NCBI RefSeq assembly: GCF_001956695.1
Contig: NZ_CP019070.1
Span: 2,170,001 to 2,234,000, forward strand
Length of the DNA stretch: 64,000 nt
Source of the DNA: Poseidonibacter parvus
Lineage (GTDB): Bacteria; Campylobacterota; Campylobacteria; Campylobacterales; Arcobacteraceae
Direction: 5' to 3'
This document shows positions 7,711 to 10,991 of the stretch, piece by piece. Position 1 is the first letter of the stretch. Each line of letters opens with the position of its first letter. Below the pieces are notes generated by a model, which was not told where the DNA came from, did not search any database, and saw only the letters and a list, made by a program, of their open reading frames with translations. The position numbers were made by a program, and so were the translations under genes.

Positions 7711-10287
7711 TTATGAAATATTAACAATTACCTCATCATTTACTACATCAAACTCTACTTTTGAACCTTCAAAAATTTTATCTTCTAATATTAAATCTGC
7801 AAGTTTATCTTCAACTATTTCATAAATAGCTCTTTTTAATGGTCTTGCCCCATATACTGGATCATATCCAGCTTTGGCTACATAAGCTTTTGCGTTTTCG
7901 CTTAATGAAATATGTATATCTTTTTGCTCTAATTTCTCTTTTATACTATTAAACATAATATCAACAATATTTGTAATTGCTTCAAGTCCAAGTTGCTCAA
8001 ATATTACAATATCATCAAGTCTATTTAAAAACTCTGGTTTAAAGTATGCTTTTAAATCATCTAATACTTCTTTTCTTCTTTGTTCTTTATCTGATATATC
8101 AATAATTTTAGCACTACCAATATTAGATGTTAAAATTATAATAGTATTTTTAAAATCTATTGTAACACCTTTGTTATCTGTTAATCTTCCATCATCTAAT
8201 ACTTGTAATAAAATATTAAATACATCAGGATGAGCTTTTTCAATTTCATCAAATAATATTACAGAATATGGTTTTCTTCTAACTGCTTCAGTTAACTGTC
8301 CACCTTCATCATATCCAACATATCCAGGTGCAGCTCCTATAAGTCTAGATACTGCATGTTTCTCCATATACTCACTCATATCAAATCTAATTAGTGATTT
8401 TGGATCATCAAATAAAAACTTAGCAAGAGTTTTTGCAGCTTCTGTTTTACCAACTCCTGTTGGTCCTAAGAACATAAAAGAACCAATAGGACGTGAATCA
8501 TCACTTAATCCTGCTTTATTTCTTTTAATAGCTCTAGATATAGCTTTTAAAGCTTCATCTTGCCCTACTACATCTTCTTTTAACACAGACTCAACTTGTA
8601 ATACTTTTTGTTTTTCTGAATCCATCATTTTATTAACAGGAATTCCTGTCCATCTTGAAACTATTCCTGCAATTGCGTCTTCATCTACAGAATTTCGAAG
8701 AAGTGTTCCTTCTTTTTGCATTCTATTCCATTTTTCTTCATTTTCTTTTATTTTTGTTTCTAATGCTGGGATTTCACCATATTCAATAGATGCTGCTTCT
8801 TCAAATTTAGATTCTCTTTTTGCACGCTCTGCTTTTGTTTTTAGTTCATCAATTTTTGCTTTTAATTCACTTGTAGCATTAAAAGTCTCTTTTTCATTTT
8901 CAAATCTAGCTTCAAGGTTTTGTTTTTCTTCTGTTAAGTTAGCTAGTTCTTTTTCAATTTCTTCTAATCTATCATCATTCTTTTTACTTTTTTCCATTTT
9001 TAAAGCTTCTTTTTCTACATTAATAGTTTGAATTTCTCTTTTTAATGTTGAAAGAACCGTTGGTTCTGATTCAATTTGCATTTTAAGTTCAGCTGCTGCT
9101 TCATCAATTAAATCAATTGCTTTATCAGGTAGAAATCTATCTGTTATATATCTATTTGATAACTTTGCTGCACTTATTAGTGCTGAGTCATTAATAGTAA
9201 CATTATGATGCGTTTCTAGTTTTTCTTTTATTCCTCTAAGAATTGATAATGCTTCATTTACTGTTGGTTCATCAACATTTACAGGCTGGAACCTTCTTTG
9301 CATTGCTGTATCTTTTTCAAAATACTTTCTATACTCTTTTAATGTTGTTGCACCTATTGTATGTAATTCTCCCCTTGCAAGACTAGGTTTTAAAATATTT
9401 GCTGCATCCATAGAGCCTTCACTTGCACCAGCTCCTATGATTGTATGAATTTCATCAATAAACAGTATTATATTTCCTGCTTTTTTTACTTCATCAATTA
9501 CTGATTTTAATCTATCTTCAAATTCTCCTCTATATTTTGCACCTGCTATTAGAGAACTCATATCTAAGCTTATTACTTTTTTATTAAGTAAAGAAGTTGG
9601 AACATCTTTGTTTACAATTCTTTGAGCTAAGCCTTCGGCAATTGCAGTTTTACCAGTTCCTGGTTCTCCTAGAAGTATTGGATTGTTTTTTGTTTTTCTT
9701 ATTAGAATTTGCATCATTCTATTAATTTGCTCATCTCTACCAATTACTGGATCTAGTTCCCCATCAATAGCCATTTTGTTTAAATCAATTCCATATTTTC
9801 CTAAAGCTTCAAGATTATCATCGCTACTTGCTGAATCAATTGTACTTCCAGCTCTCATAGCTTCTAGTTCTTTTGTAGCATCTCTTAGATTAATATATTT
9901 ACCTAATACTTCTTTTAACTCTTTTGAGTCAAAATTTGAAATAAGCCAAGTATCAATAGCAATAAACTTATCTCCTTGTTTTGCTGCTTGTCCTTCTGCT
10001 TTTTCTAGACTTTGAACTACGTTTCTTGATAATTTTATATTCTCTTTTGTTACTGATGAAACTGCTGGTAATTTTCCTGCATATGATTTAGCTTCTAATT
10101 CAATTGCAGCTTTATCAATATTCATCTTATTTAATAACTGGTTTAATACCGAGTTTGTATTTGTTAATAAAGCCCAAAGTAAATGTATTACTTCTACTTC
10201 CTGATTTTTATTATGTAAAGCTAATGCAACAGACGAATCTATTGTTTCACTTAGTTGGTTTGTTAGTTTTTCAAATAATTTATTCAT
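7711..10287 (-). CDS. clpB: ATP-dependent disaggregase ClpB
   Basis: 858-residue Hsp100 chaperone that works with DnaK to dissolve protein aggregates. It contains the Clp N-domain (about 1-145), NBD1 with Walker A GEPGTGKT near 207-214, and the long coiled-coil middle domain that distinguishes ClpB from ClpA/ClpC (about 400-525). NBD2 carries Walker A GPTGVGKT, and the C-terminal part contains [13 protein letters not shown]. Length is typical. The upstream region has a near-consensus sigma-70 promoter with both an HspR-type and an HrcA-type operator (separate entries), so heat-shock control looks likely. Confidence 0.97.
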
Positions 10288-10288
10288 A

Positions 10289-10315
10289 TTAGCACTCCTT
10301 TAGTTTAACTGCTAA
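10289..10315. promoter_or_regulatory. CIRCE (HrcA) operator of clpB
   Basis: Reads TTAGCACTC, nine bases, AACTGCTAA on the plus strand. The first arm matches the CIRCE consensus (TTAGCACTC-N9-GAGTGCTAA) exactly and the second matches at 7 of 9 positions. It lies between the -10 box and the clpB ATG, where HrcA binding would block transcription. Confidence 0.8.
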
Positions 10316-10319
10316 TAAA

Positions 10320-10349
10320 ATTATAGCACCTTGAGTGTATGTTTGTCAA
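10320..10349 (-). promoter_or_regulatory. clpB sigma-70 promoter
   Basis: On the minus strand TTGACA (10349-10344) and TATAAT (10325-10320) are separated by 18 bases. Both hexamers match consensus exactly, which is unusual in Campylobacterota, where -35 boxes are normally poor. Confidence 0.8.
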
Positions 10350-10350
10350 G
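10330..10350. promoter_or_regulatory. HAIR (HspR) operator over the clpB -35 box
   Basis: Reads CTTGAGT, seven bases, TGTCAAG on the plus strand, against the HAIR consensus CTTGAGT-N7-ACTCAAG: one arm perfect, the other 5 of 7. It covers the -35 hexamer, so HspR binding would be expected to repress. Confidence 0.75.
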
Positions 10351-10424: not shown

Positions 10425-10991
10425 ATGTTATGTGGTATTGATGAAGCTGGTCGTGGGCCTTTGAGTGGGCCTTTAGTTGTTGCTGGATTAAGACTTAAAA
10501 AAGAGATTAAAGAATTAAATGATTCAAAAAAATTAAGTGAAAAAAAAAGAGAAGAACTATTTCCACTTATAATTGAAGACAGTGATTATCATATAGTTTT
10601 TAAAAGCGCAAAGCAAATTGATGAAAAAGGTTTAAGTTATTGTCTAAAAACAGCAATTGAAGAAATCATGCAAAATGTAAAAGCAGATGAATATTTAATG
10701 GATGGGAATACATCTTTTGGAATAAATACCTTACAACATAAAATAAAAGCCGATGCAACAGTAAAAGAAGTTAGTGCAGCTTCAATTTTAGCCAAAGTGT
10801 CTAGAGATAGATATATGAAAAAAATTGCACCTTTATATCCAAACTATGATTTTGATAAACACAAAGGCTATGGTACAAAAGCTCACGTAGAAAAAATTAA
10901 AGAGTTTGGAAGATGCTCTGAGCACAGATACACGTTTAGATTAAAAGCTTTAGGTGAAGAAAAAATTGGTGTTCAAAAGAACTTATTTTAG
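10425..10991 (+). CDS. rnhB: Ribonuclease HII
   Basis: 188 residues. RNase HII cuts the RNA strand of RNA/DNA hybrids and single ribonucleotides in DNA. The start MLCGIDEAGRGPLSGPLV has the DEAGRGP signature with the two metal-binding acidic residues at positions 6-7. DATVKEVSAASILAKVSRDR and YPNYDFDKHKGYGT are the later family blocks. The 3' end overlaps the convergent sensor kinase gene by 4 nt. Confidence 0.96.
   Translation: MLCGIDEAGRGPLSGPLVVAGLRLKKEIKELNDSKKLSEKKREELFPLIIEDSDYHIVFKSAKQIDEKGLSYCLKTAIEEIMQNVKADEYLMDGNTSFGINTLQHKIKADATVKEVSAASILAKVSRDRYMKKIAPLYPNYDFDKHKGYGTKAHVEKIKEFGRCSEHRYTFRLKALGEEKIGVQKNLF

Follow-up and report, generated by a model that had tools for sequence, protein, structure and literature searches.

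In Campylobacter jejuni, groESL and hrcA-grpE-dnaK are controlled by HspR and HrcA, and clpB is under HspR only (PMC7464140, PMC12131804). Repression of Pgro and Phrc requires both repressors, PclpB being repressed by HspR alone (PMC7464140). At Pgro, the two proteins bind cooperatively and in mutual contact; HrcA, which is helped by GroE, loses its binding on heating, and HspR is active up to 45 C (PMC7464140, PMC8533110). HrcA also binds Phrc in vitro, yet this promoter is not deregulated in an hrcA mutant (PMC7464140). In Helicobacter pylori, groESL and hrcA-grpE-dnaK are likewise under both repressors and cbpA-hspR is under HspR (PMC6102357, PMC6032397); the joint action at the groE and dnaK operons of Helicobacter and Campylobacter, mentioned with the original prediction for the present locus, agrees with these reports. 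H. pylori differs from the system described here in that stress protease genes are reported to lie outside the HspR regulon and the two repressors bind independently. The HspR-controlled clpB genes of Streptomyces and Bifidobacterium share a HAIR with the present locus, with no CIRCE listed at clpB (PMC6102357, PMC9004370). Conversely, the HrcA-controlled clpB of Mollicutes (Spiroplasma) shares a CIRCE at its promoter, under HrcA only and, in the part of that source available to us, with no HAIR described (PMC5138195). In openly accessible papers, a search outside which most subscription papers lie, we found neither a description of a dual HspR/HrcA clpB promoter nor papers on Arcobacter heat-shock promoters. 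Based on operator sequences and on the analogy with C. jejuni groESL and hrcA-grpE-dnaK, we consider it very probable that HspR and HrcA jointly repress clpB here, forming a compact two-repressor heat-shock switch.

Layout of the clpB promoter

The window, that is, the whole 64,000-nt stretch of DNA that was analysed, contains clpB and its upstream region with the following features:

7711..10287, minus strand: clpB, ATP-dependent disaggregase of 858 aa (open reading frame; TIGR03346 chaperone_ClpB, 1175 bits; ClpB_D2-small and Clp_N matches)
10287, minus strand: clpB start codon ATG
10330..10350, minus strand: HAIR, predicted HspR operator, CTTGACA-AACATAC-ACTCAAG (from sequence, family conservation and loss of the right arm without hspR)
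10344..10349, minus strand: -35 box TTGACA, within the left HAIR arm
10320..10325, minus strand: -10 box TATAAT, with TGC just before it (extended -10)
10289..10315, minus strand: CIRCE, predicted HrcA operator, TTAGCAGTT-N9-GAGTGCTAA (from sequence, chance expectation and family conservation)
10295..10300, minus strand: Shine-Dalgarno sequence AAGGAG, overlapping the right CIRCE arm (from sequence)
10425..10991, plus strand: divergent neighbour gene, probably rnhB (RNase HII), outside the clpB switch (open reading frame; named by reading the protein sequence)

Read along the minus strand from 10350 to 10285, the region comprises CTTGACA-AACATAC-ACTCAAG, GTGC, TATAAT, TTTA, TTAGCAGTT-AAACTAAAG-GAGTGCTAA, T and ATG. 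Both hexamers match the full consensus with an 18-nt spacer between them, and the CIRCE lies between the -10 box and the ATG. The original prediction of exact TTGACA and TATAAT hexamers in the minus-strand clpB promoter was right in letters and coordinates, and it correctly placed a HAIR over the -35 box (10330-10350, containing TTGACA at 10349-10344) and a CIRCE just downstream of the -10 box (10315-10289, after TATAAT at 10325-10320). One arm of each element is perfect, as had been claimed: compared with CTTGAGT-N7-ACTCAAG, the HAIR matches at 5/7 positions in the left and 7/7 in the right arm (12/14 arm bases, with correct spacing), and compared with TTAGCACTC-N9-GAGTGCTAA, the CIRCE matches at 7/9 and 9/9 (16/18 arm bases), neither operator being perfect here. 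The left HAIR arm is inseparable from the -35 box, and transcription likely starts at about 10313, inside the left CIRCE arm.

The predicted arrangement shares with C. jejuni Pgro and Phrc two repressors, a HAIR upstream, a CIRCE over the start site and joint repression (PMC7464140). In contrast, the region bound by HspR there extends from -37 to -106 at Pgro and from -16 to -111 at Phrc, upstream of the core promoter, whereas the HAIR at this clpB covers the -35 box. An HspR footprint over the clpB core promoter, from +18 to -63, is also known from C. jejuni PclpB (PMC7464140), but an HrcA operator or HrcA control is unreported for that promoter; clpB is no HrcA target in C. jejuni and is a predicted one here. 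A clpB promoter with both operators therefore sets this genome genuinely apart from C. jejuni.

Allowing up to 3 mismatches, 0.01 CIRCE sites were expected in the window and one was found. Genome-wide (2.87 Mb), there were five sites versus none for a reversed control, located at groESL (perfect), htpG, clpB, hrcA-grpE-dnaK and, with 3 mismatches, within a coding gene. HAIR sites do not stand out in number (4 with up to 3 mismatches in the window versus 2.9 expected), and whole-genome HAIR counts were uninformative, the reversed control giving more matches than the real pattern. Because the HAIR count is at chance level and half of the element is the -35 box, its significance rests instead on conservation and on the decay of the arm outside the -35 box in genomes without hspR. 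The HAIR/CIRCE pair at clpB is not a chance occurrence.

Repressor genes and conservation within the family

The genome that carries both operators in one promoter also carries both repressor genes, the presence of which had been proposed as a check. hspR (L106:2241-2633; PF13411, 60.5 bits) lies behind cbpA (L106:1368-2228), and the cbpA-hspR promoter itself contains a HAIR, at position -78 relative to cbpA and with a single mismatch; the identification of hspR thus rests on a MerR-type gene downstream of cbpA with a predicted autoregulatory HAIR. hrcA (263 aa) is the first gene of the hrcA-grpE-dnaK operon, which has its own CIRCE. Its product scored 235.6 bits against NF003033 (E 7.6e-70), slightly below the cut-off of 248, and matched TIGR00331 at the N-terminus only; judged from this score, the HrcA of this genome is divergent. 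A search of the genome with the Pfam model PF01628 returned no HrcA match, a false negative that is overruled by the operon context and NF003033 and that warns that the general Pfam model misses the HrcA of this group. Another small MerR-like protein, weakly similar to HspR (NF047375, 38.6 bits), is encoded at L102:1801-2139, two genes upstream of htpG, and comparable weak MerR-like/HspR-like matches occur in G082, G086, G091 and G130.

We compared the clpB upstream regions of 90 genomes of the host's family, Arcobacteraceae. HAIR and CIRCE are both present at clpB in 79 of the 90 genomes (76 of the 79 distinct), with a start-to-start spacing of 33 bp in 4, 34 bp in 48 and 35 bp in 27. In the family alignment, the HAIR arms reach 1.86 bits per base, compared with 0.61 in the spacer and 0.40 in the upstream flank, and the CIRCE arms reach 1.87, with a spacer value of 1.12 that is raised by the Shine-Dalgarno sequence and an A-rich stretch. 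A CIRCE within 4 mismatches is present in 88/90 promoters, its right arm being near-invariant. Both repressor genes and the comparative evidence for both operators support the prediction of clpB as a target of HspR and HrcA in a compact double-repressor arrangement, and as judged from these comparisons the dual clpB promoter is a functional-looking, family-wide variant of the known HspR/HrcA circuit. In the genus g6, two genomes (G044, G045) have a clpB with neither operator; in g7, searches of two others (G048, G049) matched hspR and hrcA and returned nothing for clpB.

GGAG overlaps the CIRCE in 72/88 of the family elements, the right arm containing the Shine-Dalgarno sequence, as would be expected if the CIRCE acted mainly in RNA as a temperature-sensitive hairpin over the ribosome-binding site. 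This explanation is extremely unlikely, since the predicted fold is weak (-6.1 kcal/mol, z -0.9; -4.0 kcal/mol if the transcript starts two bases later) and since left-arm position 7, which faces the Shine-Dalgarno sequence, is changed to A or G in 72 of 72 overlaps, whereas a hairpin switch would require pairing there to be kept. We rejected an RNA thermometer on both grounds. In the 16/88 promoters with a distant CIRCE, position 7 is C. The left arm may be maintained in a form that does not base-pair with the ribosome-binding site; against a firm conclusion stands the hrcA CIRCE, which often carries the same change without a Shine-Dalgarno overlap.

Loss of hspR and origin of the dual promoter

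An hspR match was found in 36/36 tested family genomes with the dual clpB promoter and was missing from 10 of the 11 without a HAIR at clpB (Fisher p 4e-10 for HAIR at clpB versus hspR in 49 genomes, kinship ignored). Two clpB promoters read afterwards as a forward check followed the same pattern, G060 (hspR-positive) having a HAIR and G054 (hspR-negative) a decayed one. When promoters were anchored on the -35 box, hspR-positive genomes showed 0-2 mismatches in the right HAIR arm at clpB and hspR-negative ones 3-7, with G050 counted among the latter and one hspR-positive value of 6 (G089) attributable to a mis-anchored promoter; at the hrcA promoter, the ranges are 1-3 versus 1-7 (rank-test p 1.8e-7 and 1.1e-6, kinship ignored). 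CTTGACA is kept in 9/12 hspR-negative clpB promoters while the right arm decays, which separates the promoter need from the operator need. Since hspR-negative genomes are confined to three genera (g8, g9 and g6), the independent losses are few, perhaps three. Exceptions are G050, with an hspR match and no HAIR in an assembly that is 7% contaminated, G059, with no hspR match yet a HAIR at hrcA, and G167 from outside the family, with a HAIR and no hspR match.

These data bear on whether only HrcA matters at clpB, the HAIR being a -35 box that happens to be followed by a matching right arm. The chance-level HAIR count in the window and the identity of the left arm with the -35 box would fit; nevertheless, we regard this as very unlikely, because the family conserves the right arm, located within the promoter spacer, and loses it together with hspR while the -35 box stays, and because most of the order's other families likewise have a HAIR at clpB. 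The converse, in which only HspR matters as in C. jejuni and the CIRCE is weak or vestigial, draws on the HspR-only control of C. jejuni clpB (PMC7464140, PMC12131804), on the two deviating bases in the left CIRCE arm here and on C. jejuni Phrc, where binding of HrcA in vitro goes without deregulation in the mutant. It is improbable in view of the family-wide retention of the CIRCE and its near-invariant right arm; moreover, the CIRCE at clpB is usually retained in lineages lacking hspR and is perfect in 5 genomes of g8, a genus without hspR.

Outside the family but within the order, 39 clpB promoters could be read; a HAIR-like element with up to 4 mismatches is present in 32 of them, usually at -50 to -65 and in some further away, and a CIRCE-like element with up to 4 mismatches in 4. 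Three named contigs from outside the family (L013-L015) have a HAIR and no CIRCE at clpB. G305, the sole genome with hrcA among seven f5 genomes searched, has both operators at clpB; G105, where neither hspR nor hrcA was matched, has a CIRCE alone; and the CIRCE-like sites at clpB in L215 and L233 are weak. Given that the HAIR stands alone in the majority of promoters sampled outside the family and that only HspR control is reported for C. jejuni clpB, the CIRCE at clpB seems to have arisen within the family; by sequence, HrcA control of clpB appears to have been superimposed, throughout the family, on an HspR switch that was there before. Alternatively, the CIRCE may have been lost elsewhere, as many other families have no hrcA match at all. 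On balance, gain is the probable course: HrcA control would have been added to an HspR-only clpB promoter and to htpG, the main chaperone operons sharing both repressors, with the CIRCE alone taking over after hspR loss and becoming near-perfect. To the same joint reading belongs the fusion of operator, promoter and ribosome-binding site at clpB within about 60 bp, one arm of each operator doubling as -35 box or Shine-Dalgarno sequence. The heat-shock regulon would thus have been rewired as a gene under a single repressor acquired a second and, in some lineages, ended up under that second one only, the first repressor gene and its operator having disappeared together. The lineages of the family are a natural set of variants in which the contribution of double repression could be probed.

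Proposed switch and other promoters of the regulon

What the sequences show is the operators, the repressor genes, their conservation and the joint loss of hspR and the HAIR arm; binding by the two proteins, their joint and cooperative repression and the way heat is signalled are inferred. At growth temperature, HspR on the HAIR would cover the -35 box and HrcA on the CIRCE the start site and ribosome-binding region, together excluding RNA polymerase from the clpB promoter. Upon heat, HrcA would lose DNA binding, by analogy with the C. jejuni protein, an intrinsic thermosensor that GroE assists, and repression by HspR would weaken, so that clpB would be transcribed from its near-consensus sigma-70 promoter.

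The hrcA-grpE-dnaK promoter has the same HAIR/CIRCE layout, at 33-35 bp (mostly 34), in most hspR-positive family genomes. The groES upstream region contains a weak element resembling a HAIR, TCTTAGT-N7-ACTCAAA (L101:1820-1840), which precedes the CIRCE start by 54-55 bp in most hspR-positive genomes and was not found there in the five hspR-negative genomes read. The shared layout at hrcA-grpE-dnaK and the looser one at groESL would place clpB in the same co-regulated set. The centres of HAIR and CIRCE lie 37-38 bp apart at clpB and hrcA in most cases; at groESL, where the HAIR-like element is weaker, the distance is 57-58 bp. As this difference is about two helical turns, both proteins would, going by the spacing only, keep the same relative face. 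The fixed spacing at clpB is only suggestive of cooperative repression by HspR and HrcA, and at clpB and hrcA promoter geometry alone could fix it.

A CIRCE is also located upstream of htpG (L102:2617-2643; G000:C1:1087116-1087142) and is found within 4 mismatches in 29/30 family genomes read. Behind it lies a conserved block resembling CTTTAGC-N7-TATAAAG, absent from two hspR-negative genomes, which might be a degenerate HAIR or the core promoter. Separately, the 21-mer CTTGTATGTCTCACAGTCAAG occurs on either strand in at least 6 identical copies in the genome (e.g. at G000:C1 613637, 1933366, 2092196, 2385679, 2679873 and 2813611) and is perhaps part of a repeated element such as the rRNA operons.
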